A stretch of DNA of 64,000 nt from Branchiostoma floridae (taxonomy: Eukaryota; Chordata; Leptocardii; Amphioxiformes; Branchiostomatidae): positions 20,283,529 through 20,347,528 of the forward strand of contig NC_049987.1 of the NCBI RefSeq assembly GCF_000003815.2, written 5' to 3'. Of this stretch, positions 2,394 to 64,000 are shown in pieces. Each line of letters opens with the position of its first letter. Position 1 is the stretch's first letter. The notes below the pieces were generated by a model, which saw nothing but the letters and a program-made list of their open reading frames with translations, ran no database searches and was not told the origin of the DNA. Made by a program: the position numbers and the translations under genes.

Positions 2394-2545
2394 ATGTTTA
2401 AGAAGGTTAGGAAGGCCCTGTCCATGTCTAGGAAGCAAAGTAGAGAGAAGATCTACACTGTAATCACTCCAAGCAGACGGATACAGGGGTCAGAAATTAC
2501 CGGGCAGAGGCTAGCAGGATTCACTAGGAAGCAAAGCTTTCTCAA
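2394..2545 (+). CDS. First coding exon of the TIAM/sif-like gene (basic leader)
   Basis: Fifty codons starting [14 protein letters not shown] and ending in phase 2 at a GTAAGTAG donor. The leader is rich in Lys and Arg and ends QSFL. Joining it to the acceptor at 6409 gives [11 protein letters not shown] in frame, and fly SIF likewise has an SF..L.AEVF sequence where its WH1 begins. Unlike TIAM1 and SIF, which start MGN and can be myristoylated, this exon has no Gly at position 2. Either membrane targeting relies on the basic residues or another first exon exists. The phase match and position next to promoter motifs support it; transcript data are lacking. Confidence 0.7.
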
Positions 2546-5500
2546 GTAAGTAGTGTTGTCATTCTGTTTTCTACTAGAGCAAAAGTTTCTACCAGAAGCT
2601 TGTTGAAGTGTTGAAGGGTTACTAAATGATCACTGCATTCAAGGAGATTCTATTATAAGCCAGAGATATATGTAAGTCAATAGGATTATTTTATTATTAT
2701 GTACTAGATAATTTGTGCTAATCTGTACTGTCAAACAGTCCTATGTGTTTCTTGACATGTTGAAGGTTACTAAATGGTTGCTGCATCATTAGTCAGAGAT
2801 AGATGTAAATGGATAGGATTGTGTTATAATTAGCCACTAGACTATGTCAGAAATGTGTACGGTCAAAACAGATGTCAGGTCTGGATTTGTGTGTTTTTGC
2901 TTGGACCAGTAATGTCACTTAGATTGTCTGGATAAACTGCCACAAGTTTACTTTAGAAGTCCAAATATTGACATTGATCAGATTATTGTTTTATTTGTAA
3001 GACTCATAAATTATAGACAATACAATTTAACTTGTCTGGTCATGACTATCCAATACACATTTGTTTGTGTCTGTGACAGATGATTTTTGCACCTGTAGAA
3101 ATCAATTTACCAATTTCTCCCATGGCTTGTATCTCTGAAACAGGGAGTGTTTTTGGTTAAAAATATTTTTTACTTATTTTTTTTATATCTTATATCTTCC
3201 ACTTTTTCTATTCTATGCCATACTATTCTATGGTATCATATATTGCATACTCACTTCAATATGTTTATCTGGTCATGATACTCAGTTTTGTCCACTTGTC
3301 TGTCAATTGTTATTCAAATCAGTTGTCATTGATCCAACTTTACCAATTTAGAAATATTTGAACAGAGCCTGTCTGCACAAATCTCCAAGCAGATGTTATG
3401 ATGCTTATGCATGGTAACTATTTTGCCTCCCCTGTCAAATGCTGGATACTACTACATCTACCAGGAGTAGGATATTTGCCAACCCATGACTGCAGCTTTA
3501 AGTGGTAATCTCCTAAAAGGAAAAGGAAAATTGTAACATTTACCAAGCTCCCTGGTCTGTGACATAGCACCAGACATTTCACCTTCCACAACATTAGATT
3601 TAGAAGTATAGAAATTAGGTCCGGTGCTCTGCTTGAGAAACTTGACAATTTTGCCTTCCTGTATCTGCTTGGAGGTTACCTTAGTGGGAGGCCAGTGACT
3701 AATGTAGGGCAGCTTGTCCAGCAGGTAACACTATCACACCTGCGGTGTCAGGGTCACGCACCTTTTGTTGATGTTTTTACCTGCTATGTAAAGCTAATGT
3801 CCAAGCTGACACATGACTTTTACCATTTTTTTCAGCTTCTTAGGATGTTTTAGAGGTGGTTTATACCATTTTGATGTGCTATAGTTTGAAAAGTCCTAAA
3901 CAAGCAAGGAAATGTCCAAAACTTGACAAGAGAAAGCCAAATCCATACTACATCTGCTTGGAGGTTATGTAAAAGTACCAGGGACAACAGTAATCATCTT
4001 CGGGCTTGCCCATTCACTGCGGATTAGCCTAAACAAGAGCGCCAGTCTTCGTGTGCGGCTGTTTGTTGTCTGTGGGATAGAAAATTAAAGAAGTCACGCA
4101 AAAGATCTTAGCGGGGTCCCACCTAGCGTTGGGTAAATTGAGGGCACGCTGCTTTGTGTATGCGAAAACTCTGATGTTTATGTAAGTTAACAAGGAGGTT
4201 CTGTTCAAGAACGTCATTGGTTAAAGTTTGAGAGCTGCTAACATATTCGGTATAATGAAATTACTGAACATGAAATCAGACTTTCCTAGTCTATCAGTGT
4301 TTTGTGACAGCAGTTTTATGTAATCCTCATTGTGCTTGTGCCTGAAGAACTCGGGTTGAATTATACATAGGCGAGTTTCCTCTTCTTCTTCTACTTCTTC
4401 TTTTCTCTTTATTGATGATGCCCCCAGTTGCAGACAAAATCTAATTGAATTGGTATTTACAATCAATACCTTTTTACAAACTGTGACATTGCCAAACTTT
4501 CACATGGAAACCAAGAAAAAAAATTGTAACATTAATTCAAAATAGATCAATAGCACATTTAAAACTCTAGTGCATATTAAAACTCTGTCAAGAAAGTGAC
4601 CCATGGCAAGGACACACAACTTTGCAAACATTCCAGACAGAATTATCACATTTGAAACAGCAGACAGTTCATTAAAACATTCGCTGTAGTTGGTGGAAAG
4701 TCGTGTTGTCCTTGAACTCCGAGCCACACGTATCTGTTTGTGCCAACGCTATCGTGTGGCGTAAGTGAGCTTCGCTTACAGCCTGCTGGCTGCCATCACA
4801 GATTGGGTGACACAACAGTGACTGCCACAACACTGACCTACAAGCAGGTGGTTCCTGGCTACAAAAACACAGACATAGTGCTCGAAATGCCCACTTGCAC
4901 GCTTGCAAATGCAACCTCATTTTGCTTGGCGCAGGTCAATTTTTAAGCCAGGTAGTGCAGTGGAGTACAACCTGAAATTTTGCAGTTAGATCACTGCTTT
5001 TCCCCTACTTACGTACATCAGCTTTTGTATTTATTTCTTGATAAGATAAAACAAAGTACATGTAACTGGAAGAAAAGATAATGGATATTAAGTAGCTGAT
5101 TTGAAAAAAAGTAATAACTTAGAAGTGGGGCAAACCTGAAATGTTGATGGCGCAACCTGGCTTTGACTCAGGTTGCCACCTGGCTAGCATTACAACATAA
5201 GGGTTAGCGACAGATATATACATGTAGCTTGTCGTTAGCTATTAGAAGAAAATGTCACGAAGAAGCCATGTTTGATTCAGTGAAACTAAGAAAATGTGGC
5301 ATTTTTACTTGACCCATTTTACGTTACAGTGATGATGATGGTGACCCTATATTTCAAAGATTACCTCAGCTGCCATTTGTTTACCTTAAGCCTTCAAAGG
5401 TCTGAACTGTGTTCCCAGTTATTGGGACAGGTGAGTTTCACACCTGTTCAAGGTGCGTCCTAACAGTAAAGCCCAGGTAAATCCCTCTCCCTGGCAATTA

Positions 5501-8500
5501 TCACTTCATCTGCTCACACACAAACTGACAAAGGTGTCGGGTCTTCGTGGGATCCAATCCCATCACCATCATATACGGTTTAGACTTTAATTTTTTCTGA
5601 CGTATGATTTTCAAAAAGGCTGTAATGACAGTACCAACCACCTACAGGGATCTACAACAACATTTTCTGTTGCAGAAGAGCTGAATTTTTGCAAAGTGTC
5701 AACGACTATCCCCAAAATGTTCCTAAGTTTATAATACTGCAGTAAAGCTGCAGTATGACGTATGTGACAAGCTTTATTCCCTGTCTGGTATACATATGAC
5801 GAGGTCGGCAGCGTTGCTCAGGATGAATCAGTCAGCAGGAATGTTATGGTAGGCTGGGAGTCCTGGCATTCTTCCTGAATGGTCTATTGAAGGGTTAATG
5901 GGTTGCCACGAGCCTTTGTACCTTGTGATGTGTCCGGCACATCATGCTTTCACAGGTGCAAGGTTAGACATGTGGAGTCGGTATCCTGTTTCAGGGCTTT
6001 TCCTGGCAACAGGCAGTTATTGTGGAACCTGTCTATGCTCTTGTTTGACAGCCTTAACACAGACAAGCAGAAAAGATGTTCTGTGCATTGTGCTGACTTG
6101 TGGATCACCATTTTTTCCATATTTTCGTAGATCAGTGGATGGATCAATACTAGTTTTCTTGAGTCTATTCACCAAAGTCCTTGAATGTTGAGACTCCAGA
6201 GACTAAACAGCCTTAATCACATTTTTCAGTTTGAGAGAAGAGGTAAAATGTGCTAATAAATTTTTTCTGGTAAATTTTTTTCTTTGTTTCCATAAAAATG
6301 AAGCTGACCCAAGTTACTGTAGCTGCAAGGTATTCGTCAAAAGGTGTATTTGCAGCTTTGTATGAGTCTATGACTCAATTTACCCTGATTTTTTTCCTGT
6401 TATTTCAGGCTCTTGGCGGAGGTTTATCGCGTGTCCTCCAACAACAGCCCCCCGCGATGGAAGCGAGTGACGGACACCCTCGTCCCAGTGACGGTCAAGT
6501 GTCTGCAGGACGCGCCGTTCCACGTCTTCCACATCACAGCAAACAACTTCGCTGACCAACGGGTGCTCGACGTCCAGATTACTGTTCCAGGTAGGAAGAA
6601 TGTTTTCCCTGTGGAGACTGAATTTTTTGTTTATTGTTGTTTCTTTTAAATTGTTAGATTGTCTGGGTGTGACATCAATCTAGACCAGTCGACAAAACCA
6701 AGAGTATTGCATAAAATGTAAGGGCTAGGCTATGAGTTTGCCATAATACACACCTTGCACACCAGGTAATGCCATTGCTTGCCTTGAATAGAATGTAGAT
6801 TACTACAATGTATAAAAGAGATAGATCCCAAAACCAACAAATCACCTCAAAAGGCACCATATTTTTAGTACCTGAAGCCAGCCATACAATGCTTTACTGT
6901 ACCCCTTGCAGATACTAGGCCTACTGTGACTTAAACTTCTCTGTGCAAATTGTGTACACAGTTGGAAAGCCAAATGAACAATGACTGTGTAACTATATGT
7001 ACAAGCTGTGACAGAAATAAAGCCACCATTATATAACTGTACGATTGTGTATATAGGAGCCTTTAGGAGGAGGGAAATAATTCATGAGCTATTTGCAATG
7101 TTATGTGAAACTTCACAGCTGTCTACTTTTAATTTATCACACAGTTTCCAAACATAGTGCCTTGAAAAATGATTTTCCAAACTTAAGCTGGCCCGAGTGT
7201 TTTAAATAAACTTTTGACTGACAATTTTGTTCTCTTTTACTTTCCATCCAGGAACCCTGTTCAACAAGACAGCAGAGAGCTTTGTACAATGGCGGGACAA
7301 AATGAACGGTAGATATTCAACAGTTTCTTACTTTTAAACTGCACCAATTGATTTCCTTTGTTCTTCTTGGTTTAAAGTAAAAATTCAGGATGAAAACAGA
7401 AGGCATGGAGGAAACTATATTCACTGAAACTTTATATAGTATTCACTCCCTGATAGTGGGTGTAGCAAGGAACAGACTTTCTCTCAGGAGTCTGTTTTAA
7501 TGTAATGTTCTTCCAATTTAAGTCAAAATGATTTTTTTTTCAATTCTAGAAAACAGCAAACAAAATTGATGTGGCCTTAGAATTGGTAGATCTATCAGAT
7601 ACCTTGCCTTGGCAATTATCATTTCCTTTCATGTGTTGCGTGCAATTACTACATTTGTTTGCATTTTCCTACTATTTCCTGGTAACTAAGTAGCACAGTC
7701 AAACAGATCTATAGGATAGAGTCACAAAGTACAGGTGGTCAATGGTCACTAGAGATAGGCAGGATTGTTAATGTTTGGTTGAATTAGAAAGATGATGTCT
7801 GACCAGGTGTTCCTTATGCAGATGTGGTGACTACAGGTTTGACTGTATATCAAAGGCCAGGTACTCCTCACTTATAAAGGGTGGTCTCTTGTACAGGTTT
7901 GACTGTATATCAGTTGCCACTTAGTCCTTATGTAAAAGTGGTCACTAGTAAAGGATTGACTGTATATCAAAGGCCAGGTAGTCCTTATACAGGGTATTCA
8001 CCTGTACAGGTTTGACTGTACATGTATATCAATAGCCACCTGTGTGAAAATCAACTCGCCCCGAACGGTTCGAACCGGTCCGAGGGCAGTCCGAGCGGTC
8101 CGCCTACGTCAAAGCCGTCCGGCCCGCGAGGCTGCCAGTCCGAGCGCCGGGCGGTGAACCGTCATTAAGTGGTTCAGCACGTTCGACAGTTCAGGACCGC
8201 CGGACGCTTCGGGCGCCGTAAAACACTTAGAAAAAATTGCCGCCGCCCTGCCAAATTTTGTCTAAGTCCCTAAATTGTATGAAGCCGTGCGACAGCGCCC
8301 CCTTCCGTACACTAGGCGCAGCGGCCAGAAGAGCAGTAGAGTCCGTAGGTGAGACTATTAGACATTGTTAGAGGCATGCATTACGTCCATTATTGCGGGG
8401 CAACAGCCAGAGCGGGCGAACACTAATAGTAATAGCGTTGCACTATCGCCAGAACAATACAAAATGTACTATGAAAATTTAAAAAATTGAGATTTTTCTG

Positions 8501-11500
8501 CCTTCAAATCTACAACTTTTCTTCTATATTATATTTTGGCCGCGACTAATGAATGGGTGACGTGTTTTCTTGTACATATATGTCACCACGCACGGCTGTC
8601 TGAAGTGAAGAGTAGAGTATAATACAATACTCAATAGAGTAGCAAAAACCAACTGATGGGTCTTCTAGTAAAGTTTACATACACTTATAAAATGCTGTTC
8701 ATTTTCCAATTTCCAGCTTACAGTGTGTTGAGTCACCCTTTGAAGAATCTGCTCCGCTACTCAGTGCATTTTTTCTGCATGTGCGAACGTTGCTCAGAAA
8801 GCCCGGCTGTCCAGTGTGCGAGATGATTTTGGAAAACACAGCGATCCCAGTTCCAGGCTGCACCCGCTGAAATAAACAGCGGGTTGATTGACATCCCGCC
8901 TGTGAGGCGCACGTGAGCGGCGCTCTGGTGGTCTTCCCACCACACATTGGCCGTTGCCATGGCGCCATGCTGGCGGCAGCCGTTTGATGTGTACAGTGTG
9001 GGACAATCTATTTACTGGCTAGCCAATCGCTACGATTTGTACGAAATGAGCCGGAGACGTCGATTTTCACTGCAAATAATGAGCCACATGATTGGTTGTA
9101 AGAAACTGAAACTGAAATCCTATGCCCCACTATCAAGTTTCTTGGAAATTCATCTGAATATGGCGAGCCAAAACACGTTGTTCAACCACGTGATTAAGAC
9201 AATGCCAAAATTTTCGCAGTTACATATTGCCACATTTTGTGACATAATTTAGGTTGTGGGCCCTGTCCGAGTTTTATGGACGGGAAAATACGTCTGGGAG
9301 AACTGCGACAAATGCCTGTTTGTCTAATGAAGTCGGCAGGCTTGATTGCCGACTTGCATGTCGGCTTGCTCTCTCCTTGCAGGAAAATGTTAGTCTCTAC
9401 CAGTACCAGACTCCGGGTCGCTGGAAAACCGTAGAAATAGAATGAATAGAAGAGTAAGCCGGCCAGGGAACAGTACGCGACCTGCACAGTTTGGATTGTC
9501 CATCACGCCCATGCAGCGTTGAGTACGCGGATCACACCTACATGTTTATCCTCTCGACCATTATTAAAGGGTAATCTGCCACGAAGTACCAGTCTTTGTA
9601 TCGTATCTCGTACACTACCAAATGCCGTGCATGCAGCATGTAAAATCTTTATTGACACGACAAAAGTAAAGCGACTTTCGTAAGGTCTATAACTAAACAG
9701 ACATATGAATATCTATAGGTATGAACAAGTCATTGTTACGAAGTCTGTTCTCATGAAGAATGAATATGTTTTAGTCCTGTTTGTCTCTTTATTTTTCTCT
9801 AGCGATAAATGAGAAAAAAGTCTTAAACACGTAACAGCAGATACCGCTTGGATAGTCGCAGTGGCATGGCGAATAAGAATTCGGCACGCCGTATTTCGTT
9901 TCTAAATCACACGAACGCTATATTGTCCGTTCTGCTGTCGTGTTTGATTTACTAACTACATTGCCCACGCCAATAAAATCGTTGTCTTCCAAGCCCAGTG
10001 TAATAAAGTACTATAAGAAGAATAAACGACAATGCTATTGTAGGTCACCCTGGCACCTGAGGTCTTCACCATACGACTCGGGATTGATCATGCTCGCACG
10101 GCGTTAAAACGGGTGGGGAAAAGTTACAGACCACCATTGTTTTCTGTAGAACTAAATATAATCTTTCTACCCTATGATTAAATAATTGTCTCTGGCGCTT
10201 TACAAATAAGACGACATTGAGTTGCGCTACGTTTCGATTGACTGTCATTGTACCAAGCGACGATTCTGTCCAAATGTGCAATAATACGGGAGATAATGTT
10301 GAAAATGTATTTAGCATCTTTATTGCCTTTCATGGCGTCCGGCATTATCTCGCCTTGTGGACAATACCTAACATGATTTGTGAAGTGCAATATTTTGAAT
10401 GTTTCTCACTTACCAAAATTTCCACCATCGTTTGGAGTCAAAGCGCATGCTTTGGCCGGAAAGGAACTTGTGAGCAGTACCTGGTTGGATCACCTGTTGG
10501 ACGACTTGTAGCAGCGAGACTTCAATCGACTCTCTGAAAACGTGTTGAGTTTGACCAGTGATATTCCCCTTGACATTATATCAAGAAAGTGGGACTAAAA
10601 ACAAGTACAGTGCTGTGTCACGCTGGAGTACGGTATCCAAAACAGGACACGGGGAACGGTTAGCCGAACATCTAACGCCACCATTTTATATGCATATTGT
10701 TGTTAGAAGCGTTAGAACTACTTTATCATTTTGACCTGTACTTAGCTTTAAGAGCATAAACGTACAATAAAAATTCGAAAATATATTACTCGTTAGTCGA
10801 AGCGACGACTGGATCAAGAAACGCCGTGGATGGCTGCATCCAGCACGTTACACTTACAGAAGGAGAGACTATGCACTACCCGTGCGTCGCAAATTGATAG
10901 GGGTTGGGGATGGTGACGCACAATCTAGGGGTCAGTGTCATGTTCCCCTGAGAAATTTGGACGCTTCATCCTTCGTAATATGAAAGGTTAGACTTAGAGA
11001 ACTGCCCTGGATCTGGCCAGGGACAGGCGGATCTCAGGACACGCAACAGTGCCTCCCGAACCGTTCTGAACGTTCGGACCGGCTATCACGATTATTGTCA
11101 GCAGGGTGTCAAGCTTGAAAGACTCCCCTGTCTGCCCCTGGGGATAACATGAGCATTGCGCGTGCGTCGCGGTCATTTCAAATTGAAAACTCATCAGTAA
11201 ACCGTTTCCTGATGTCCTGTGTTATTTTTCCACTTTTTAGTCTTATACTAAGGCTAAATGTACAGACTATCATGGATAAGTTGGAAGAGGTGTCGCGTGA
11301 GGGGTTTGTACGTTGTCGTTTCGGGTCAGGATGCATCAAACTGCCATGGAGAGATGGAAAAGGACTAGCAACACAAACAATTTGTGTGGAATTATGTTCT
11401 GGTGCTGTTCCAACCGACTGCCGAAACTTCCGTGGAATACGAACGGACTGGAATGCAAACATCCCTTCTTCATGTTCAAGACTGAACTGGTAAGAAACTG

Positions 11501-26500: not shown

Positions 26501-29500
26501 TTCACTTTATACCATAATCATATAATTGAACACACAAGTGTGGAATACAGGGTGTGGCAAGGCAAAGTGTCTGTGACTGTCAAGTTCGATCCACTTGTTC
26601 TCATTTCCTCTGCATTAGCTATCAATTATCATACATGTTTGTGTATACAGTAATTACTGTTATATTTATTATACCTGTACTCGTGACCTGGTCCTCTGGA
26701 TAAAGGCCACCTGCCATTGCTTCCACTTTTTGGTTGTCCCTGAGTTTTTGTTTTTCCCTTCCTTTATGCATGTTGGCTTTTGTCCATATGCAGAGGTGGT
26801 CACTGGGATAGGTTGTAATGTACAATACCTGACTATGTGTCTCATATTCATCTCACCCATCATTGTTACACGTGTTAACCAAACGTCACCAATGTTAACC
26901 AACAGGGAATCGCGGACGTAAGTGGCCCCACCACCCCCAGCGGAGCCCTGTTGTTAGACAGGCTGGGGGTGAGGTGCATACGGGTCCTCCTCCCTAACGA
27001 CCACGTTACCATGGTTACGGTGCAGTCCTGGATGACGGTCCAGGACGTTCTAACCATTGCATGTCTGGTGAGTGGTGGTGGAATGGTCTCCAAGCAGATG
27101 TTATGGCTTTGGCTTCTGAACAGAAAATACATAATATCTATCATCTGTGATGTGTATAATGTCTGTGTTACAAGTTTAAGCTTGTTTTATACATCTTTTC
27201 AGAGGTGTAAATTAGAAAAGATTCCCAAACTAGACACACAGAAGCAGGCTGAAGCAAAACATCTGCTTGAAGTTAGCGGTGGACACACTAATATCATCCC
27301 TCTGTTAGCTTTGTTCATTACTTAACTCTGTACTTCTTCAGAAAGTGTCTAAACTATACGTTACTCACAGGTGTTAACAAATTAAAAGTTGTCTGATGTT
27401 TCCATGATACGTCTTTCTCCTTGTATCCTTTAGCCTGCGTGTGATCATTCAAGTTTGAATCTACAATGTTGAACATGTCATCTGTGATTTTCCTTAATGT
27501 ATTCCTACCAGCAGTCTCTTTCATGGCAATATTACAATTTGTTAATGACAGCTACTCTATAAAATTACAGAGTAATAGGTATAGATAATGGTAATAGGAT
27601 GCATGCATACTTTTTTTTAAGGAATACCATCATGACAATGTTTTTCTTTGATAGCAATCCTGAATAGACGAGTTATTTTTCCAGACCTGTAACTGATGAA
27701 TCTCTATAAAGGTCAGTGTGATTTGGCCCTCTGCTGCAAGACTGATTTTACATCATGATTTATTTGTGAACCTTTGACAGAAGCGAGGAGTCGACCCTCG
27801 TGACCACTTCCTGCAGCTGAAACAGTACGGTCCTGACGGGATGGAGCTCGTCACTCCGGACAGGAAAATACTCATGGACAACCTGGTCAGTTTTCTGCAA
27901 GGGATTTTTCTCAAAACTTCCTAAATCAATCTTTTAAAAGGAGTAAGAAAATGGTAGTGCCTGGTAATTATAGAATTTGTACATGCCAAATATGAACAGT
28001 CTAGCTTTGTACAAAGATAGGTCTTCTGAAGCTTCAGCAAATAAATGTCATATTAAAGGTGCCAACATACATGTATTAACAACAAATCAACATGCAGTTT
28101 TTAAGAAGGCAAAGAACCAAATTCACAGAAAAGAGGTCGTAGATTTTTAGGTGTCAGGTAAAATCTGTATGACAACACTTAATTTTCCATGTACAGGTGT
28201 TTGAAGAAGTGGTTGTTTCTCCAAAGTGTATCTACCAAGTGGAGCTGACAAGGGAACCAACAGGAAGTTTTGGTAAGCTTTCAAGTTTTCATACACAACT
28301 TGACAAGTGGTAAACTACATGAGGTTTGGGAGTACTAGACCACATTTAACTTGTGATCAACTGCTCCGTAGCCAACTGATGATGATGATGATGAGACTGC
28401 ATGTTCTACTAATAGCGCAATATTTATGAATACACAAAAGCAACTTTCTCTACGAAGAATGTTTTGAGGCAATCAGTGGAAAAGTTCAATTTTACCTCTT
28501 TCTTTATTTTACTTGAAGAGATACAATGTATAATAAAAAGGGCAACTTCCAAGGTACTGGCATGCACAAACATTTGCACTACGTTACATGTACATGTTGA
28601 ATGCTTGAATGTTTCAGGTTTCCGTGTGGATGCAGAGCTTGGTGCAGATGGTGAGATGGAGGATGAACTCAGGGTGTTTGTGTCTGCTGTAGAGAGGGGA
28701 GGACTCGCTCACCAGAAAGGTACTCAAGACTTAAATCTAATAGCCCATGTTTGTACATGTTACCCATATATCCGTGCATGGTGATAATTTAAGCAAGCTT
28801 GATCTTTGTACATATTAACAACCAATGTGTTCACCTGAAACCCAGGCCCGCCAGCTTAGGAACACATCACCATAACCGCTAGGCCAAAAGGTCCAGAACA
28901 GTAAGACTGGTAGCTTGAATCCCACTGTTACAACTTAATACACTTGCCAAAGACATGTGCAATTTGCCTTTAGGGGTAGAGTGTTCTCATATATGCAGGT
29001 CAGTGGTTCAAACCCTGGCTGTATCATACTGCTCTGAGAAAGAATATGGGGGTTCAACACACACTGCTACCATCACCTAGCCCCCTACTGTAGTGGCCTG
29101 TGTGGAGACATAGAAATAAAAATGGGTACTACCCTATATGTCAAAAGGTGTAGAAATTATTCTAGCTAATAAGATTAGTTCTAATCTTTATAACATTGTT
29201 TATTTCAGATGTGCTTGCAGGAGATGAGGTGCTGGTAATAAACGGCAGAGTTGTGTATGATCTGGACATGATCTACATCGAGAGCCTGCTGCAGGGACCT
29301 GCACTCACCCTCACACTGCGCACCAACCGCCCTGAGTCTCAGGTGTTTGGTTGTTTGGTTGTTTGTTTTGCTTAGCTGGTAAATCACTTCTAGGCATAAC
29401 ATGCTAGCTTTATTCAGAATTCACAACCTACTTAAGACCAAACTGTAAAGATTGATCCACTCACACCACGATAGACCTCTACAGTTTTTGACAAGTGTGG

Positions 29501-32500
29501 TGAATTCTTTAATTCTTTTCTCAAACATGGGACCTCCAGCTTTACATGGTAGTACTACTAGTACTAGTAGAGTCGATTGATCAAGAGGAACAAGGTGTAA
29601 AGTGCCATTCCCAAAGGTATAAGTTATAACAGTAAGGCCTGCTAGAGAGTAGGCAGTAGGCAGTAGACAGTAAACCCAGGACCTTTAAATTCAACAACCC
29701 TAACCACCAGACCACCTTGCCCCCCCAGGTCGCCTCGCTACACCTCCGCACCACAGACATGCTGATCGATCAGCTGATCTGCCCACCGCCTCCCAGCCAA
29801 TCAGAGTACGAGGATCCGACTTTAGATGACCTCATCATCCCAGCTCCTACTGGTGAGTGGTTTGGCTCCTGAGAAATCTTTTTTTTTTTTCTAGTCTTTT
29901 TTTTTTCTCCTGGGGTTGACATATCTCCACAAAGGCGATTTTTAAAGGGTCATTTAGGGAACTCAATAATTGTTTAATCAGAAAGGGCAAGTAACACTTA
30001 AAAGTCATCATTTAGGTTAGAAATGTTCTGTTCCTTTTTTTCTTCTTCTTTTTTACTGATTGAGTTTCCATTAGATTCAAGTTTCAACATTTCTCCTGTT
30101 TGATAAGAGCAATAAAATGAGAAGTTGTTGAATGAGGTTGAGTTCTTATTATTACTCACGGAAGTAACAAAGTGTTGCATATTTAGTGTGTCTTTACACT
30201 GAGTCTTATCATATGACATGTTCTGACTATTTGCCTTTGTCTCCCCAGACTTTGACTTCAGCCCCAGAAGTGACTCCCCTCGGTCCAGCGTTGTTAGTGT
30301 TACCTCGCCTCTCCAGGACCAGTCTCCATGGCAACAGTCTCCACGGAGACAGAGCAGACAGGATGTTGATTCATTGCTACAGGTCAGTCTCAGCTTTGCC
30401 ACTGGGATATCTGTGCTCCAATAGTTCAACTGAGTGTGGTTGTTTTGCATGTACCTTCCCTTGCTGGGGCCGTCTTAATACAGTGGAAAGGCAGCTACAT
30501 TTAGAAGTCAGATTAATAGCATCCCCATGTTGTTGCTGTTAGCAAAGTTTAAAGGGCAAACAGATAAAGTAATGTCTCAGAAAGATTGTAATTTCTGTTA
30601 GCAATGTATGACCTATCACGGCTGGGCTGGGAATCGAACCCCTTACCGTAGGTTAAATTGCTATTCTTTATACCATGGGATGCTTAATACTAGAGGGTAC
30701 TCATACAGTACTAGTATTGAACAATATAAAGGTTTGATAATTTTCTATTGTCTCAGGGGGGTACACATGTTAATGTATTGTGCCGATGATATTAAGATGT
30801 TTGTTTTTGTTTGATCCAGAGAGCAGAGGAGGTGACTGACCTGTGCCGCAGCCACCACAACTCAGGGAACACGTCTCCACGGAGGTTCAGCGTCTCCAAG
30901 GAGCTGTCCAACTGTCAGAAACTCAGGAAGGTCATTCTGGAGCTGGTCACCACGGAGAAGACATACGTCAAGGTCAGGATAGAACCTTCAAGTTTTGTAG
31001 TATTGTGCACTTCTCACTATATTTTTCATCAAATTCTAAAGTTTCAAACAATTCTGTTAAAACAATGATTCACAGTGCCTTTCCCATTATCACTGTTGTC
31101 TTATTGACAACCATTGTGCAGTGCCAAAAAAAAATTTTTAAGTTTGTGTAAGGTTCTTCCATCACAAATATTAAGGACTATGTCTGTACATTGTACACAT
31201 GGAACTTGACTTTAAGTTTTACTGGGAAGCATTCAATCGTTTGATGAACACACAACTAGATTTTTCCTAAAACCATGTATTTCATTGTGTTCCCCACAGG
31301 ACATGGAGTGCCTACTGGACAGATATCTACATCCTCTCCAGAATGAGTCATTCTTGTCACCTGATGAGGTAATTTGAGACTTTTTGAGACTTAATTAACG
31401 AAATAAATTAGTGGTGTGCATTGGAGATCCAACACTAATCTTCCTTGACTTCTCAAGAGACAATTATTTCAGACAACAATAACTTGCATGTTTGCGTTCA
31501 TAAATTTGTACAAGAACTCTGGGAATTTCCCCGATACAATAAACCTGTACATAATGTTTGTCTTCTCTGTCACTCTTCAGTGACCTTATAAACAGGTTTG
31601 AGATCACTTTCACATTTAACCCTTCTCACCCTTCTTCTCCCCACAGCTTGAGGCTCTGTTTGGGAACATTGAGGAGCTGGTTCAGTTCCAGAGGAAGTTC
31701 CTACAGGCTCTGGAGGACAGCGTTTCTATAGAACCCGACTTTCACACGGTGGACTCTCCCACTAAGTTTAGGGTAAGGCAAACTTGTCTGAATTCAACTT
31801 TGCGCAAATTGTTACTTGTTTGTCCAGTCACACTAGGGTGAGCCCACTAGACAGAGCCACATGGAAACACAGTTTGAAGACTAGCCAACTGCTGCCTACC
31901 TGTGTCTCTGGGTAGTACTTATTATATGTTTGAATTATGTGCTAGTGTTTTGTTCAAACTGTTGACAAGTTTATACCCTAGGTACAACTATTTTATGCTT
32001 ACTGCACTCAGATTCTGTACTTAATAGGCAGTGTCAGAAAACTGGCCATTGTTGCATGGCAAATTCATAAACTTTAAGATTGTTTTGGTACGTGACACAA
32101 GTTGAAATTGCACCTTGAATGTCAATCCGCCTTAAGAGGACTGTTATCAAATATGACCTAAAATTTGTTAAGACTTGGTTCAGAAGTTAAGAATCTAATC
32201 ATTTCTAATTTTGTTGATTGTTTAGAAAACGCTGTTCTCCATCAGTGGAGCTTTCCTGTATTACGTGGACCACTTCAAGCTGTACAGTGCCTTCTGTGCC
32301 AGCCATTCCAAAGCCATCAAAGTCCTTGATCCTGGTAAGTCACCACAACTTCACACCAAAATGACATCTGTTCAAAAGGGGCAGTCATCAGACATTGCAA
32401 CACTGTATGCATACGCTATGTATGATTATGTGCTTTCCAGTATGACTTCTGTGTTTTTTTAATTCAGCATCACATTGTGTAATTTTGATACCATATATCT

Positions 32501-35500
32501 TTCATTAGTACATTTATGACTGTTAAAAATCCAGGTGAATAACGTTCTATGACAGATCAATCTCTACAACTTTTAAAGATACAAAGATTTCTTCCAAATG
32601 TTAGTGACATACATCACTCTAAGTCTTCTTCAGCACCACTAGAATGTGTTTCATCAGAACGTAGATTAAGAACAAATTCTTGTCCTCCACCACAGCTAAG
32701 GGTAATGTCCTCACAATGTTTGATTTTATATAAAAAAAAATGATATTCTATTTTCTCTCCCACAGGTAAAGGTAATGCAGCCTTCCGAGCCTTCCTGGAG
32801 GCGCGAAACCCGAAGCACCAGCACTCAGCCACGCTGGAGTCGTACCTCATCAAACCCATCCAGCGCATCATGAAGTACCCACTTCTGCTGAAACAGCTGG
32901 CAGCACTGACCAACCAGGAGTCAGACGAGCACTTCCATCTCTCGGGTAAGTTCAGAGGTTAAGGGTCAGGGGTTAAGGGGTAGGATTTAAGGGTTGAGGT
33001 TAGACAGACCCATCCAAGGAATCATGAAGTATATGCTTCTACTTAAACAGCTTTCAGCACGGACCAACCAACATCAATGCTGGGTTGGGACTAATGAGTA
33101 GCCTAGAACCCATCCTATTCTAAGCCCTGTTCACCCCTCTGGTCACATCCAAGCAGACAATGACTTTCTTAAGCACAAAGTTTTCAAGACTTGTACATTT
33201 GTAGTAGTCAACATCATCGTCCATTGGCAACCTCACTAACCATCACCCAATCACAGATGACCTTGCTCAGTCCCAACCATAGTCTGGGGAAGGCAGTGAG
33301 GCCATGGTCAGCTATGTATGACAGGGACTTGACAAGAACAACAAGGGCTTGACTAGAATACTTCCCTTGTAATATGAGATGTAACCAAGATGTGTTTGTT
33401 TTATTACAGAGGCCCTGAAGGGGATGACTTCTGTAGCTGAACACATCAACGAGATGCAGCGCCTCTTCGAGGAGTATGGGGGCATTTTTGATGTTCTCAT
33501 CAGGGACCAGCCATATGCTAAGAAAGAGGTGAGACTCATAATGTTTTTGTACGTTTGTCCGCATTTTTGTAGGGTCTGCCGCTACCAGCCCAATGCTGCC
33601 TAGACAGACCCATGCAATGACTTGTCTCATCGTCAATAAAGTCAAAGTCATCACTAAATATCCCTTTAAAAAAGATGAAGTGAACTTAACTGAAAAGGTT
33701 TGATGGTACATTCATGGCATTTAACGTATAACGGACAAACAAAATCTAGTCAAGATAAGAATGCAATCTTTTGAATAGAAAAGAAAATTGGACATACCCA
33801 AATTTTCGACAGACTGAAGTTGGTCAGTCAAATATTTGAGTAAGTCCAATTTTTTGTGTTGGAAGTTGTGTTAAAAGTTTGAATATGATCCAGAATGATT
33901 TTACCAACACAGATGAACTTTCAAGTTTACATAGTATTACTCTCTATAACAATGTAATCATAAGACCTTCTACAAAGGATATGATGCTGTAACAGTGTTC
34001 TGCCTCTCTTTCCCAGGTGTCCCACCTAAGGATGGGAGACCTGCAGCTGTTTGCCAACGCCTTGTGGCTCAACTCTTCTGATGACATCAAGCACAAGAAG
34101 GGCACTGAGCCGGAAATGGCCATATTTGGTAAGATATTAGACACAAGAAAATTACAGCAACATTGTAGATACAAAGTGACACATATCCATCAGAGGTCTT
34201 ATTTGGTGTGTTAAACCAAATGGTGGTTTGACCGGCTATACTGATGCTATACTAATATTTAAAGTGTGTTATATAGTCCTCAACTCAAAGGGAATAATTG
34301 ATCATGGTAATCTGAAAATTTCAGTCGATCAGTTTTAGTACAATGGCGCTGCAGGATATTGCTGCAACTCTGCACTATGAAGCATTTCAATCTGTTGGTA
34401 GATACATGTAGTCACAGAGAGAGATAGTCATTACAATATTGACATTGTGATGGAAAAATCCTATATTTACCAGCAAATCTGGTTTCCCTTTTTTTTTGTT
34501 TTTCAACACCAACAGTTGTAGAAAGTATAGTTTTTTGTGCTCAGTGTCTGACTGAGCTGTTTCTTTTGTGTGTAAAGAGCTATTTTTGTGTTCAGTGTTA
34601 AAAGGAGGCTGTAAGTATTGTTGAGATACACTTTTGGAAACTGAAGTTTTTGCTTTGTGTGCATGTTCAGTGTTTAAAGGAGCTGTAGTGCTGGTGTGTA
34701 AGGAGGACCAGAGACACAAGTGGAAGCTGACCCTGACCAGGAAACAGGGGAGAGAGGTGTTGGAGGACAGGGAGAGGGAAGTCGTGTTGTTCAAGAGGAT
34801 GGTTCCTGTGTCACAGCTGCAGATCCGCAACAGCAACACCAATGGTATGTAATAGTGCAAAATTGTAGTTATGTTACAATGTAGCAGATTTTTATGATAA
34901 ATTCTGATAGCAGTGTGTGTATTGCATCAAAGTATGTATTACACCAAAGTCATGTGTAAGATACTGTGTAAGATTTGCTTTAATTTGTGACTTAAATCAA
35001 ATATCATTATACTTAGTAATACTGATACTCTGAAGGACACTGCATTACATTGTTGTAGAAGCTGTTTTGTTTTTTTCATTAGGAGCAAGACAACCTGAGT
35101 GAATAATTCTTGTAAGATGAAAATACTTATTGATGATAAATCCTTTACTTTTTATTAACATTTGAGTTCCTTTTTTTATTGTCACAGATACGTATGGCCG
35201 CTGTGTGTGGGAGTTGGTGCACAGTAAGTCACACAAGGAGGGCAGGCCGGAGAAGGTCTTCCAGTTCTGCAATAGGTACGGCAAAACTTTAACTACTGTG
35301 TTTCAACTTTTAAAAAATAAACTTATTATGAAAATATGGAGACTTCAGAATATGCTCCAAAGACTTGTAATCTGAATGCCAAAGTTTGTGTTAGTTGATT
35401 TACATTTTACTATCTTTTTGTTATAATTTTTACATAGCTTGAATATGCTCCAAAAACTTGCAATCTGAATGCCAAAGTTTGTGTGAGATAATTTACATTC

Positions 35501-36207
35501 TTCCTGTCCTTTTGTTGTACTTTATACATAGTTTGGACCCTCTTGTCTGGAGCAACCACCTTCAGTCACCAACCATTTTCCTCGAGTGGATGTTGAGATG
35601 AAATTGACTGTTATTTACATCCTGTTCATTTGTTTGCAGTACCCCAGAAGCAAAGAACGGTTTCATGAAGGTCATCCGACAGGTGATCAAGGAAGCCGCC
35701 AGCAGGTGTTCCAGCGTCACGCCAAAATCCCTGCTGCGGATGAAACGCATGGAGGGAACGCGTCGGCTGATGGACCGGAAACGGCGACACACTGTCGCGG
35801 TGAACGAGGTCGCTGGTGTGACCCTTCCCGGCGCACTGGGGGGCGTGGACTTTGGCAGCAACCCCAGCAATAGTTCCGAACCTCGAAACGCTAACAGACT
35901 CCATCAGAGGCGGTCGTCGGAGCACTGCGTAGAAACGTACGACAACTTACAGGACAGGGACAGACCTGTGACTTTCCACGAGTCGCTAGGCAACGACAGT
36001 CACCGTGGAAACATGCAGAGGGACCATGGCGTCGCGTGTAGGACGTTAAATTTTGACCAAAGCTCGGGAATGCTTACGGGAAGAGCGCTTGACTATGTGG
36101 TGGATAGCGATACGGAAGATCCGACCGTCGTACGAGCGTACCTACCCATAGCTTCCAGTCGAGCTGGCTTAGAAGAGTGGAATGACTTTGCAACGACAGA
36201 TTGTTAA
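2394..36207 (+). CDS. TIAM/sif-like: TIAM/still-life type Rac guanine nucleotide exchange factor, 37 coding exons
   Basis: Predicted Dbl-family exchange factor that loads GTP on Rac at the membrane cortex. Coding exons as read: 2394-2545, 6409-6590, 7252-7308, 14679-14743, 15287-15358, 16667-17820, 18238-18463, 19085-19155, 21650-21780, 22476-22562, 22891-22988, 23303-23351, 23768-23862, 24320-24400, 24650-24751, 25122-25205, 25602-25658, 25844-25855, 25984-26057, 26265-26355, 26906-27067, 27781-27885, 28197-28272, 28618-28719, 29209-29342, 29729-29852, 30249-30382, 30820-30972, 31300-31368, 31647-31772, 32226-32334, 32766-32945, 33410-33528, 34017-34128, 34671-34844, 35188-35275, 35640-36207. 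These total 5,475 bases, in frame throughout: 1,824 residues and TAA. Domain order is WH1 (about 52-151), Ser-rich linker, PHn (672-783), CC-Ex (784-902), RBD (1005-1078), PDZ (1081-1168), DH (1293-1500), PH (1512-1653). Vertebrate TIAM1 is about 1,590 residues and lacks the WH1. The start and exon 1 are the least certain parts; the core from exon 9 onward is very secure. Confidence 0.93.
2608..2880. repeat. Diverged tandem duplication in intron 1
   Basis: Two imperfect copies with period about 150 bases, beginning at 2608 and 2758 (TGTTGAAGG...TTACTAAATG, then AGTC/GCCAGAGATA.ATGTAA, then GGTCAAA/TGTCAAACAG). Several indels separate them. Confidence 0.6.
3383..3674. mobile_element. MITE-like element with CTCCAAGCAGAT ends
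   Basis: The 12-base inverted termini CTCCAAGCAGAT (3383-3394) and ATCTGCTTGGAG (3663-3674) bound 292 bases without coding potential. The same terminus recurs at about 3953-3964, near 27097 and in the element at 50149-50363, so it is a dispersed family in this genome. Confidence 0.6.
11021..12054. repeat. Direct repeat pair inside the 6.46 kb element
   Basis: About 130 bases at 11021-11151 recur at 11929-12054, from CAGGCGGATCTC to CTGCCCCTGGGGATAA. Each copy has a CCGAACCGTT..GAACG..TTCGGAC palindrome in the middle. The copies differ at scattered positions. They resemble internal binding-site clusters. Confidence 0.7.
12723..13054 (-). other. Possible first coding exon of an unknown gene inside the element
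   Basis: On the minus strand an ATGGCGACC start (13054) opens 110 codons (MATDKIISN...SGRTFELRP) and meets a consensus GTAAGT donor at 12722-12717. Composition is Pro/Arg-rich near the end. I recognise no domain and found no convincing next exon. It may be the 5' exon of an element-encoded protein or chance. Confidence 0.22.
16241..16705. repeat. Tandemly duplicated splice-acceptor region before exon 6
   Basis: Decayed copies of the acceptor and first codons of exon 6 precede the real one: near 16302 (GTAGAAATATGGAGCAATTG) and 16591 (ACAGAAATGTGGACG), against the true CCAG|AAATATGGACCAACTG at 16663. The flanks also match (GGAAAATTCTGTCCTTTCAC at 16243 and GGAGAATTCCAGGTTTCAC near 16540). Confidence 0.6.
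16367..16443. repeat. Compact hairpin element
   Basis: Arms of 33 bases (16367-16399 and 16411-16443) are nearly perfect inverted repeats around an 11-base loop. The inner arm is GACCGCTGGCTCA and the outer end is TGAGTACCATC. RNA or single-stranded DNA would form a long hairpin. It is probably a small foldback transposon. Confidence 0.75.
16667..17820 (+). other. Large Ser-rich linker exon of the TIAM/sif-like gene
   Basis: A 1,154-base exon, about residues 177-561, much longer than the other exons and GC-richer than the surrounding introns. It encodes a low-complexity, Ser/Pro-rich, presumably unfolded region with many S/T-P sites and recurring Tyr motifs (NYENV, AYDNV, LYENQ). Near its end RSDSGFEGG resembles the FADSGIEGA stretch in the TIAM1 N-terminal region, supporting orthology outside the folded domains. 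The acceptor is TTTTACCAG and the exon ends in phase 2 at 17820. Its start lies just after two decayed copies of the same acceptor region. Confidence 0.9.
18238..19155 (+). other. Exons 7-8: Ser-rich and acidic linker before PHn
   Basis: Exon 7 (18238-18463) encodes a Ser/Gly-rich stretch with [16 protein letters not shown]. Exon 8 (19085-19155) is acidic, with a run of five Glu in SEEEEESDL, followed by HSPS. Both are presumably disordered. TIAM1 has a comparable Ser/Gly/Glu-rich stretch ahead of its first PH domain. Phases 2, 0 and 2 join to the flanking exons without a break. Confidence 0.88.
18541..18573. repeat. Half copy of the ATTGGAC foldback family
   Basis: AAATTGGACTTACCCAAATT followed by TTCGAC matches one arm of the full foldback at 33785-33855. 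The partner arm is missing here. Confidence 0.5.
20230..21110. repeat. Diverged tandem repeat with about 215-base period in intron 8
   Basis: Landmarks recur at about 20433, 20650, 20860 and 21091 (GTGGTCCAA/CAC or GTGGTTGAAC), with TTGCTTCACTG, TATTGTGAYGG and CTTTCGTCAAC between them. At least three to four units are present at moderate divergence. The last unit leads into the candidate alternative start at 21080. Confidence 0.65.
21080..21198 (+). other. Candidate alternative first exon for a short TIAM-like isoform
   Basis: An ATG at 21080 opens 39 codons ([19 protein letters not shown]...) ending in phase 2 at AG|GTGTCC. That is exactly the phase needed by the next exon at 21650, so it would give an in-frame start just before the PHn domain and drop WH1 and the linker. 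The donor is weak, and the ATG lies in the last unit of a tandem repeat, so this may be coincidence. Confidence 0.3.
21650..25205 (+). other. PHn-CC-Ex membrane and partner-binding module (exons 9-16)
   Basis: Eight exons encode the first PH domain ([63 protein letters not shown]), then a coiled coil ([20 protein letters not shown]) and the extension ([53 protein letters not shown]). In TIAM1 this module binds phosphoinositides and adaptors such as Par3, JIP2, spinophilin and ephrin-B. That is family knowledge, not shown here. Similarity to human TIAM1 over SVSSFHAL and AVPEHPK is direct and unmistakable. Confidence 0.95.
21913..22313. repeat. Two-copy tandem duplication, 205-base period, intron 9
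   Basis: Copies begin CAGTGTTGAAAATTAAC at 21913 and 22118 and end CTGAATCAAGGAGGTTAAATG (first copy) or its near match. They are roughly 90 percent identical by eye, so this is a fairly recent duplication. Confidence 0.85.
25844..25855 (+). other. 12-base microexon (KKGL)
   Basis: An acceptor TTTTCACAG and donor GTAAGT frame twelve bases encoding KKGL in phase 0. Skipping it keeps the frame, so it could be regulated. The neighbours (25602-25658 and 25984-26057) give an in-frame join with or without it. The resulting [16 protein letters not shown] aligns with a basic stretch of TIAM1 around SRFSSLWGLDTTSKKK, which favours inclusion. Confidence 0.65.
26906..28272 (+). other. Ras-binding domain (exons 21-23)
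   Basis: Exons 26906-27067, 27781-27885 and 28197-28272 encode [40 protein letters not shown] and LQLKQYG..., the Raf-type ubiquitin fold that in TIAM1 binds active Ras and couples Ras to Rac. A potential extra exon (27203-27271) sits between the first two. Confidence 0.9.
27203..27271 (+). other. Candidate cassette exon inside the RBD
   Basis: A strong acceptor (ATCTTTTCAG) and a weaker donor (GTTAGC) bound 69 bases, 23 codons with no stop, encoding a charged [19 protein letters not shown] stretch. Flanking exons are both phase 0 here, so inclusion keeps the frame and would insert a helix-like segment into the RBD. No counterpart is known to me in TIAM1 or TIAM2, so it may be chance. Confidence 0.35.
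28197..29342 (+). other. PDZ domain (exons 23-25)
   Basis: The domain runs from [19 protein letters not shown] through [19 protein letters not shown] to [19 protein letters not shown] and [14 protein letters not shown]. The carboxylate-binding loop reads GSFGF, and the GD.VL.ING signature is intact. In TIAM1 this PDZ binds syndecan-1 and CADM1 tails. Confidence 0.93.
28860..29170. mobile_element. tRNA-headed SINE in intron 24
   Basis: A tRNA-like head with A-box GGGGTAGAGTG (about 28975) and B-box GGTTCAAACCC (about 29008) is followed by a tail containing CTGTAGTGGCCTGTG, GAAATA.AAATGGG, TACTACCCTATA and AAAGGTGTAG. The same tail occurs at 61801-61920 in a GDAP2 intron, which shows that it is dispersed. 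Confidence 0.65.
29580..29728 (-). mobile_element. SINE remnant next to exon 26
   Basis: Minus-strand A-box-like TGGTCTGGTGGTTAGGG (29723-29707) precedes GGTCCTGGGTTTACTG and a body with AAGTGCCATTCCCAAA. The same AAGTGCCTTTCCCAAG phrase occurs at about 49279 and 51459. The polypyrimidine acceptor of exon 26 (CCCCCCAG at 29728) abuts this remnant. Confidence 0.5.
30612..30685 (-). repeat. tRNA-like fragment
   Basis: Minus strand contains a B-box GGGGTTCGATTCCCAGCC (about 30645-30628) and an upstream ATGGTATAAAG that could be an A-box relic. No intact cloverleaf can be drawn, so this is a SINE head or tRNA pseudogene. Confidence 0.4.
30820..33528 (+). other. DH (RhoGEF) catalytic domain (exons 28-33)
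   Basis: Exons 30820-30972, 31300-31368, 31647-31772, 32226-32334, 32766-32945 and 33410-33528 encode the exchange domain. CR1 is [18 protein letters not shown] and CR3 is [20 protein letters not shown], followed by [13 protein letters not shown]. All hallmark residues that I can check are present, so the domain should be active. Family knowledge points to Rac1 as substrate. Confidence 0.96.
32546..32700. repeat. Arm of a dispersed foldback family (partner at 58849)
   Basis: CAATCTCTACAACTTTTAAA and GTGACATACATCACTCTAAG followed by TCTTCTTCAGC match the foldback element at 58849-59045 (CAATGTCTACAACTGGATAA, GTGACACCCATCACTCTTCT). A weaker opposite arm follows. Confidence 0.5.
33785..33855. 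repeat. Short foldback element (ATTGGACATACCC ends)
   Basis: The left arm AATTGGACATACCCAAATTT at 33785 and the right arm TTTGAGTAAGTCCAATTTTT ending near 33855 are inverted repeats around a short spacer. It lies in intron 33 of the TIAM/sif-like gene. Confidence 0.6.
34017..36207 (+). other. C-terminal PH domain and tail (exons 34-37)
   Basis: The DH-associated PH domain spans [54 protein letters not shown] and [14 protein letters not shown]. The last exon (35640-36207) adds about 170 tail residues with basic and Ser-rich patches and a TYDNL motif, ending ATTDC. TIAM1 ends TEI, a class I PDZ ligand. TDC would be an unusual version with terminal Cys. A possible polyadenylation hexamer ATTAAA lies at 36324-36329. 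Confidence 0.92.
35347..35535. repeat. Two-copy tandem duplication before the last coding exon
   Basis: GAATATGCTCCAAAGACTTG and GAATATGCTCCAAAAACTTG begin copies about 95 bases apart, each continuing AATCTGAATGCCAAAGTTTG and ending TACATAG.TTG. The unit is intronic. Confidence 0.8.
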
Positions 36208-42800: not shown

Positions 42801-43981
42801 AGCCACTACTGTAGGGCGCACCACATCTAGCAAGGCCTTTAAAAAAATATTGTTTCCTGTTTTGGTCCAGAAAAAATTAGGGTCGGTATATATACTAGTA
42901 GGGGCTATCTTTTCTTTGTTATGATTTTTTTTAAGCTGGCCAAAACTCTAGTGATACATATTACAATGCTGAAATACATGAGGACACTTGTCTTTTTATG
43001 TCAAAATTTGATTTTGTGCAAGATGCCAATGGTACATTTCTCCATTTGATAGGACAAGCCTGTTTTTATTTAAATAGGAAGCAGGCTGGATAAAAATTCA
43101 AACTGGAAGCTATGTGACTCCACTGCCCACCCCCCAGTTTTTTCTAGGGTTGGTAGGGAAACAGGAAACACAACATTTTTTTCCTAGGCCTAAGCATTTC
43201 AATGTCATTTACATACATGCACACATACACAGACACACAACTCCAACTTCCATGTCCATGTTACAGGCTTTTGCCTTGATAATGTAACTGGGACTTCTCC
43301 AGTTACCAGTCCAGGCCTCTAAGGGCTTTGATGCTAGAATTTGGCCTGTGTCCATCATCCATGGTGCCTTTCTCTTACAAAGGAATTCCTGTGATCTGTT
43401 GTGATGCAAATGTAATAATTTGAATGATTTGCATGTTGCAGGGCCTAACATAATTTCATCAAAAAGGTCTACAGAAGAAGTGCAGTAACACCTACCAGAA
43501 GAAGATCTATGTACTATTACTGTACGTGTGCTGCGTGCCACACCTTTTATATAATAGAACAAACAAATTATGCAAATAACTTCGCCCCCACCTCCATACT
43601 TTTTGTAACACACATTTTGTACGTACAGTACCTCACTTTTCGCCCATATATCATGCATAAATAACATATATAAACAATGATACTTGTGTACACACTTTCC
43701 AAGCAGCTATTGTTGTTAGATATGTTACCACCCACATTTATATATTCGCCAAGATGTAAATTTGTAAGTTTTAGATCTAGAAGTCGCCACGTCAACACAC
43801 CTGGGCCGAAGTCGCCATTTTCGGTAACGGCCTGGTCCACAAGACTCCCGTACTTGTCCCTGAACATCTTACTTCTCAATATCCTGACGACTTCGTCCTT
43901 ATATTCACACATACAGCTGTGTGGACAGGTACAGTTCGGTTTTCTGGGCTCCTCTTTTTCCTTGCACGGACACGCCGCCAT
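39808..43981 (-). CDS. MYND zinc-finger protein, about four coding exons, gap and frameshift
   Basis: Exons read on the minus strand: 43981-43801, 42717-41497 (contains N at 41956-41857), 41001-40526 and 40032-39808. Junction phases 1, 1 and 0 match. Exon 1 starts at an ATGGCGGCG and is Cys-rich (CPCKEKEEPRKPNCTCPHSC). Exon 2 is alpha-helical and armadillo-like in feel (AVHALRAMSPFVERLTEAGL, VAETLGKILLNCTEEHYHQY) and continues IVMFMTEVGYPVFPEDKRVK. Exon 3 has a long Lys/Glu/Ser-rich linker. Exon 4 carries a textbook MYND finger: CGFCN, CGRCRKTRYCSKECQQQHW, HKEEC. MYND fingers bind proline-rich PxLxP-type peptides. I cannot name the family. An AATAAA (39795-39790) follows the stop closely. The gap means that the full length is unknown. 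Confidence 0.82.
40279..40347. repeat. Hairpin element in the MYND gene intron
   Basis: GTCGTGACATCACAGACAGG (from 40278) is the inverted match of CCTTTCTGTGATGTCACAAG (ending about 40347). The loop includes CCCCCTTAGCTAG. It is a small foldback with a CRE-like TGACATCA in each arm. Confidence 0.65.
41857..41956. other. Assembly gap of 100 N inside a coding exon
   Basis: A run of exactly 100 N, the conventional placeholder for an unknown gap length, interrupts exon 2 of the MYND gene. The reading frame across it cannot be deduced. Confidence 0.99.
42718..43800 (-). other. Intron 1 of the MYND gene
   Basis: Bounded by the donor CCAG|GTGTGT (43800) and the acceptor GTTACAG (42718). Open frames here lack family signatures. 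I see no further exon. Confidence 0.55.
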
Positions 43982-44243
43982 CTTGGATCTCAACTTGGCT
44001 CCAGGGGGCCCTCTGGGATAGCACCAGTTGCCGCCAAAACACTAGTTTGAAACTTTTGAAAAGTTTTTAAGAAGTTTATCAATAATCGTATTGTCTTTCC
44101 ACAATCACTGTGAAAGAAACAGGTAAATACAATTTGTTCTGTTAGCTTTTGAGCACTTGCTTTTGGGTTGTCTCAAACTTTTGCAAGACAAAAGAATTCA
44201 CGCCTGAACACCTGCGTGGGAGTTGTCACGCCCCCTTTTCAAA

Positions 44244-45145: not shown

Positions 45146-45306
45146 TTGATGTATGATCATTGTTATCCAAAATCATCAACCTTAAAATTACATTGTATCA
45201 TGCATCTGGAGACTTTCTACCCAATTATCTAGTGTTTTACTACACAGGTGTCGTCTGATAACATTACCTGTTGAGCCACCTGTCCCTTGTCTACAGGACC
45301 ACAGAC

Positions 45307-54952
<9,646 letters not shown>

Positions 54953-63800: not shown

Positions 63801-64000
63801 GTGAGATGTTTCTTTTGATTGGTCGGAGACGTTTTTCTGACCCAAGGCCTCACCAATTTGATTTGTCAGTTTTGGGGAGAAAGGGACATCAAGTAGTGGA
63901 TAAAGTCAGATTGAAGTTTTCCTCACAGTCTGTTGTTTTAATCTTCTTGTTTATAACTTAAAAATGTACCAAAACCCAAGGAATAAAGTGGTGTGGCCTA

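Follow-up and report, generated by a model that had tools for sequence, protein, structure and literature searches.

A WH1 domain in frame with a TIAM-type exchange factor in a predicted gene of the lancelet Branchiostoma floridae

We analysed a window of 64,000 nucleotides (nt) from the lancelet Branchiostoma floridae (GCF_000003815.2, NC_049987.1:20,283,529-20,347,528, forward strand; positions below are counted from the first letter of this stretch). Between positions 2394 and 36207, on the + strand, lies a gene whose predicted product joins an N-terminal WH1 (EVH1) domain to a TIAM-type guanine nucleotide exchange factor (GEF). The gene model was rebuilt in silico from the genomic DNA, with predicted splicing. 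In its final form it has 36 coding exons, all with GT-AG borders, and encodes 1800 amino acids (aa) in a single frame with a single stop. The domains follow in the order WH1, serine-rich linker, PHn-CC-Ex, RBD, PDZ, DH and PHc, and exon phases match at all junctions, including those that lead from the WH1 exons into the TIAM exons. The start codon at 2394 has a gccATG context and an in-frame TGA upstream at 2364, and two AATAAA/ATTAAA signals (36324 and 36578) are found less than 400 bases past the stop. The predicted N-terminus, MFKKVRK, is without the MG myristoylation start of vertebrate-type TIAM1, taking the first exon as modelled (an alternative first exon is possible).

The WH1 domain is divided among small exons. 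Coding exon 1 (2394-2545) holds the start codon and a basic N-terminus (aa 1-51), and its GT donor fits exon 2 in phase. Coding exon 2 (6409-6590) encodes the first WH1 strands (aa 51-112) with Y57, V59 and W68 of the predicted binding groove; coding exon 3 (7252-7308, 57 nt, phase 1-1) encodes the strand with FVQWRD (aa 112-131), including F122, Q124 and R126; and coding exon 4 (14679-14743) encodes the last strand and the helix (aa 131-152), with N137 and the peptide WGLNF. An earlier reading of this DNA, hereafter the original prediction, had quoted WH1 peptides from the second and fourth of these exons, and both peptides were found where it had placed them. A model built from the quoted peptides had 35 exons over the same 2394-36207, GT-AG borders and one stop, and encoded 1781 aa. 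In this model the N-terminal 156 aa matched Pfam WH1 with E = 0.0062 (16.9 bits) and over profile positions 89-108 only, in the full 1781-aa protein WH1 did not appear at E values up to 10, and EVH1 structures were absent from the 8 PDB matches listed. The strand with the groove phenylalanine (the FxQW stretch) was missing, and we rejected the 35-exon model as incomplete.

We then scanned the intron between 6591 and 14678 for frame-keeping AG..GT stretches of 24-220 nt, which gave 459 candidates. A loose filter on motif and splice sites kept 4 of the 459, one of which was 7252-7308; the other three were not WH1-like and were rejected. The retained exon encodes a 19-residue peptide that includes FVQWRD, followed by a split G codon. 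With this exon in place, the N-terminal 175 aa matched Pfam WH1 with E = 4e-10 (40.1 bits, profile 16-108 of 111) and the whole 1800-aa protein did so with E = 1.2e-8 (35.3 bits), where the curated cut-off is 22.4 bits; the match thus spans almost the entire fold. As a control, a hidden Markov model (HMM) made from VASP, Mena and Homer1 was used to score the 459 candidates and 4267 decoys, which were generated under the same rule from the gene's other introns, from this intron read on the opposite strand and from both strands of 36301-64000 (the 100 Ns within the latter were treated as A). The model with the 57-nt exon scored 38.8 bits, compared to 24.2 for the next of the 459 candidates, 26.3 for the best of the 4267 decoys and 12.1 for the model lacking the exon, so the WH1 match that the 57-nt exon provides exceeds chance. 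In the PDB, the N-terminal piece matched the EVH1 domains of Homer1 (4.1e-7) and Mena (1.5e-4), and 17 of the 22 sequences listed were EVH1 domains of Homer, Ena, VASP or EVL, the other five having E > 0.4. The original prediction had named a Pfam WH1 match well under 1e-5 as support; this holds for the model that contains the 57-nt exon (4e-10 and 1.2e-8) and fails for the model that omits it (0.0062), and the WH1 call depends on the exon. What the original prediction called exons 2-4 may already have counted the 57-nt exon as exon 3, for which it quoted no peptide.

Downstream of the WH1 exons, the serine-rich linker is encoded mostly by the long coding exon 5 (16667-17820, aa 153-537; open and in phase) and continues through coding exons 6 and 7 (18238-18463 and 19085-19155, aa 537-636). 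The PHn match (aa 650-759; Pfam PH, 9.8e-19) falls in exons 8-11 (21650-23351) and the CC-Ex match (aa 785-882; Tiam_CC_Ex, 1e-46) in exons 12-15 (23768-25205). Exons 16-19 (25602-26355) form the linker between CC-Ex and RBD, after which come the RBD in exons 20-21 (26906-27885; match aa 980-1030, 2.4e-9) and the PDZ in exons 22-24 (28197-29342; match aa 1059-1135, 3.1e-5, 24.7 bits against a cut-off of 23.2). A further linker in exons 25-26 (29729-30382) leads to the catalytic DH domain in exons 27-32 (30820-33528; match aa 1273-1461, RhoGEF, 1.4e-45), and exons 33-36 (34017-36207) encode most of PHc (match aa 1470-1636, starting in exon 32; PH_Tiam1, 9.4e-39), the tail and the stop. The 35-exon model had given the same Pfam matches in TIAM order (Tiam_CC_Ex 1e-46, RhoGEF 1.4e-45, PH_Tiam1 9.3e-39, PH 9.6e-19, RBD 2.3e-9 and PDZ 3.2e-5). 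Among solved structures, the protein matched TIAM1 DH-PH (1foe, 9.5e-121), TIAM1 PHn-CC-Ex (3a8n, 2.9e-97) and TIAM2 (3a8p, 3.8e-93). A candidate exon at 27203, between both RBD exons, was dropped by eye, the flanking exons being in phase without it.

The protein thus has the layout of the TIAM/Sif family: PHn is followed by CC-Ex, RBD and PDZ precede DH, and DH is followed by a second PH of TIAM type. It has in addition, in silico, the mark of the still-life type, an N-terminal WH1 in frame with the GEF across 36 exons. The central claim of the original prediction, that WH1 exons join by agreeing phases to a complete PHn-CC-Ex, RBD, PDZ, DH and PH in a WH1-bearing TIAM/still-life gene, was borne out, as Pfam finds all of these domains in one 1800-aa frame. 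As a gene model, a WH1-bearing member of the TIAM/still-life family, predicted to act as a Rac GEF, is well supported. When the genome was searched with the Tiam_CC_Ex profile, three stretches were found, all within this gene (24317-25214), and TIAM is apparently single-copy in the lancelet genome. A search for relatives among viral contigs gave 11 pattern matches, none of them confirmed.

Two smaller features of the gene were observed in passing. A 12-nt exon at 25844-25855, within exons 16-19, encodes KKGL in frame; its donor ranks 34th and its acceptor 33rd of 35 in rising strength, and human TIAM2 presumably has KKGI at this position. In the 7.4-kb intron of the WH1 region, both strands of 14050-14490 have long open frames that overlap, perhaps a repeat.

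The groove of the lancelet WH1 was read from an alignment to VASP, Mena and Homer1, to each of which it is 26-27% identical, with residue roles taken from PMC11237882. Three Homer-type aromatics are retained: Y57 aligns to Homer F14, W68 to W24 and F122 to F74. V59 aligns to Homer I16, where ENAH has Tyr, and R126 is the equivalent of ENAH R81, an Arg that Homer lacks. At the position of Homer G89 and VASP N92 the lancelet domain has N137, the equivalent of ENAH N90; an Asn of this type is described as closing the Phe pocket of Homer (PMC11237882). The domain lacks the mark of the Homer class, Gly at Homer 89 with an open Phe pocket, as it has N137 there; it also lacks that of the Ena/VASP class, Tyr at ENAH 16 together with Arg at ENAH 81, as it has V59 at the former position though R126 at the latter. 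As aligned, the predicted groove is a blend of Homer-type and Ena-type pocket residues. A different blend is described for Dictyostelium VASP, which prefers [LF]PPPP (PMC11237882). The ligand of the lancelet WH1 is likely proline-rich, and, judging by the groove residues, the domain may bind proline-rich scaffolds.

The linker itself contains two candidate ligands of Homer type, the PPxxF motifs PPQSF (aa 355-359, 17273-17287) and PPADF (aa 493-497, 17687-17701). In the 491-aa linker 0.043 such motifs were expected, and two were reached by 4 of 5000 whole-linker shuffles and by 26 of 5000 local ones. Counting followed a first sighting of the motif by eye and covered four motif classes; two motifs of the broader Homer class were reached in 202 of 5000 shuffles. 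Motifs of the types [FWYL]PxPhiP and [FWYL]PPP did not occur in the whole protein. The linker PPxxF motifs may be regarded as a lead and not as a result.

We also compared this WH1 with the other WH1 genes of the lancelet. The Pfam WH1 search of the genome gave 9 stretches; it runs exon by exon, and the split TIAM WH1 exons were not among the 9. Judged by their own letters, L007 reads as Spred, L001 and L006 as Ena, and L002 and L005 as Homer, as does L004, which is nearly identical to them, while L003, L008 and a stretch on C12 are WH1 matches with no family name. In lancelet Ena and Homer an intron lies directly before VVIN/AIIN, and in Spred the acceptor of the exon falls at the corresponding VVLE. 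The TIAM WH1 is without that intron and has two introns of its own, after ITVP and after MN; these different positions argue that it was not copied recently from the Ena, Homer or Spred exons. Separately, the Homer-like WH1 exon of L002/L005 (C2:19.55 Mb) recurs in near-identical form about 8.6 Mb away in L004 (C2:10.95 Mb), through recent duplication or because two haplotypes were left unmerged.

The rest of the window contains other genes. On the - strand, 39811-44041 holds one or more genes: a MYND zinc finger is present (Pfam 2.5e-11), together with long stretches that look coding, and three of these stretches had no Pfam match; a run of 100 Ns lies at ~41.9 kb. A cytochrome P450 gene, which we take to belong to family CYP4, occupies ~45274-54949 on the + strand: its joined pieces at 52-55 kb match Pfam p450 (6.2e-58), while the 45-kb start was guessed from coding potential. 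At 56961-63801, again on the + strand and heading towards the window end, joined pieces give a gene with macro (3.8e-14) and CRAL-TRIO (5e-9) domains, presumably GDAP2-like. Searches for tRNA and Rfam families gave no match within the 64-kb window. Elsewhere in the genome, a protein query with an approximate lancelet GFP sequence found a large GFP family of 59 stretches in clusters on C17, C4, C14 and C3. One C17 locus is 91-97% identical to the query over the five stretches listed, which fits a lancelet genome. The Pfam GFP search of the genome, in which the control was silent too, gave no match and missed these stretches.

The fused layout itself is already published for fly and nematode. 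Drosophila Sif isoform E is described as carrying EVH1, which is also assigned by similarity to TIAM-1 of Ascaris and Brugia, and C. elegans TIAM-1 is described as having an EVH1-like region in isoform A and none in isoforms B and C (PMC3343084). The original prediction had ascribed the WH1 to SIF type 1; the form given in PMC3343084 is isoform E. The lancelet gene resembles Sif isoform E in combining EVH1/WH1 with PDZ and DH-PH in a RacGEF of the TIAM family (PMC3343084); set beside Sif by description, it differs in being a chordate gene of 36 coding exons, in a genome where one TIAM was found. It likewise shares EVH1 or EVH1-like, PDZ or PDZ-like and DH-PH regions with C. elegans TIAM-1A and its Ascaris and Brugia relatives. 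In contrast to the lancelet WH1, which scores 35-40 bits in Pfam in a protein that starts MFKK, the worm EVH1 is reported in PMC3343084 to be too diverged for BLASTP and CCD, with a predicted myristoylation signal. In the worm, EVH1 is described as required for distal dendrites and for puncta, isoforms without it being diffuse or confined to the soma, and distal dendrites are not rescued by isoform B (PMC9612824), and EVH1 deletion is described as compromising binding to the receptor DMA-1 (PMC6370339). Compared to Homer and Ena/VASP EVH1 domains, the lancelet domain is of the same fold family, with the groove W and F, a Homer-like aromatic at position 14 and Ena-like equivalents of R81 and N90, and is unlike them in being fused to a GEF and in its mixed pocket residues. 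With vertebrate TIAM1 and TIAM2 (STEF), the lancelet protein has PHn-CC-Ex and DH-PHc alike and RBD and PDZ in the same order (RBD, then PDZ), whereas vertebrates have two paralogues and the lancelet one Tiam_CC_Ex place. A literature search found no report of a WH1-TIAM fusion in lancelet; what is new here is the chordate case, with one TIAM found.

To our knowledge, vertebrate TIAM1 and TIAM2 are without WH1. This absence, which the original prediction had asserted, is supported in part: approximate N-terminal sequences of the human TIAM1 and TIAM2 proteins had no Pfam match, and the absence agrees with the five human EVH1 families enumerated in PMC11237882. The same prediction had made its view of ancestry depend on the species being a cephalochordate, as B. 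floridae is. We consider it likely that this lancelet gene, with an intact N-terminal WH1 (~aa 51-152), is orthologous to TIAM1/TIAM2 and still life, that the fusion is ancestral and that vertebrates lost it. In such a protein, the WH1 groove (Y57, W68, F122) would grip a proline-rich stretch of a partner, WH1, PDZ and PHn-CC-Ex together would direct the GEF to specific sites on membranes or actin, and DH-PHc would load Rac with GTP there. By parsimony, the fused form would have been present in the last common bilaterian ancestor, and the vertebrate line would have lost the WH1 exons; such a loss appears to be the simplest account, because WH1-TIAM occurs in fly and nematode (from the papers) and in lancelet, where one TIAM was found.

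Several points weigh against this interpretation. Both the small exons and the 7.4-kb intron at 7309-14678 are predicted from the DNA sequence, and the donor of the 57-nt exon is the fifth weakest of 35 by a gene-internal matrix, so the exon may be partly skipped. A second TIAM may exist, since the counts of the genome profile searches are lower bounds. Ancestry and loss rest on parsimony over three lineages and on background knowledge. Finally, a passage of PMC3343084 counts mammalian Tiam1 among EVH1 carriers, in conflict with the absence of WH1 in vertebrates; we take this statement as loose wording.

Could the WH1 exons belong to something else? That 2394-14743 is a separate small WH1 gene, or a set of pseudogene exons, that precedes a TIAM of the usual WH1-less kind and matches its frame by luck is highly improbable: the introns around these exons are 3.9, 0.7, 7.4 and 1.9 kb in length, and exon 4, read through unspliced, reaches a stop at 14882 and could be a last exon, but 14744-16666, between coding exons 4 and 5, contains no AATAAA or ATTAAA, the phases agree at all junctions, and the same fusion is described for fly and nematodes in PMC3343084. 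Nor does it seem at all likely that the lancelet WH1 arose separately from its counterparts in fly and worm, since the three lineages share both its N-terminal position and its host gene and since its introns, after ITVP and after MN, differ from the intron of lancelet Ena, Homer and Spred, so that it is not a recent copy. A more tenable possibility, which we hold only tentatively, is that the WH1 is optional, such that the 57-nt exon is a symmetric cassette whose skipping gives a long form with a dead WH1, and short WH1-less forms may arise from inner promoters, like worm TIAM-1B and -1C. Both the 1781-aa and the 1800-aa models are open, the exon is of phase 1-1 and has the weak donor noted above, skipping would keep the frame and destroy the groove (F122, Q124, W125 and R126 are lost), and worm isoforms with and without EVH1 are described as behaving differently (PMC9612824). 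Symmetry is weak evidence, however, as 15 of the 36 exons have a length divisible by three, and four other donors score equal or lower. Skipping of the exon as a groove switch is plausible.

Whether the WH1 might bind its own linker is a matter of the two PPxxF motifs (aa 355 and 493), which could serve as a cis clasp or a trans link that tunes the GEF, or else as handles for lancelet Homer. The excess of the motif over shuffles speaks for this, as do the Homer-like WH1 exons in the same genome and the best PDB match by E-value, Homer1, which is described as a PPxxF binder (PMC11237882); we find it doubtful given that the motif was seen before counting, that four classes were counted and that the broader class is common in shuffles, and N137, the Ena residue described as blocking the Phe pocket (PMC11237882), speaks against cis binding. 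A wider version, also quite doubtful and a little more so, is that the ancestral TIAM had a groove of its own kind, with Homer-type aromatics and Ena-type flanking pockets, which acted as a switch through the PPxxF linker and the skippable 57-nt exon, and that vertebrates lost this layer before or around the TIAM1/TIAM2 duplication.

TIAM1 and TIAM2 are Rac activators that have been studied at synapses and in cancer cell invasion, mostly via their PH, PDZ and DH domains. In the worm, EVH1 helps to set where TIAM acts, and the clear, nearly full-length WH1 match in the lancelet TIAM indicates that chordates have this part too. The vertebrate TIAMs may then be viewed as proteins that have lost a docking module, which raises the question of what replaced its task. 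As the lancelet WH1 is far less diverged than that of the worm, it would be useful for peptide-binding work.

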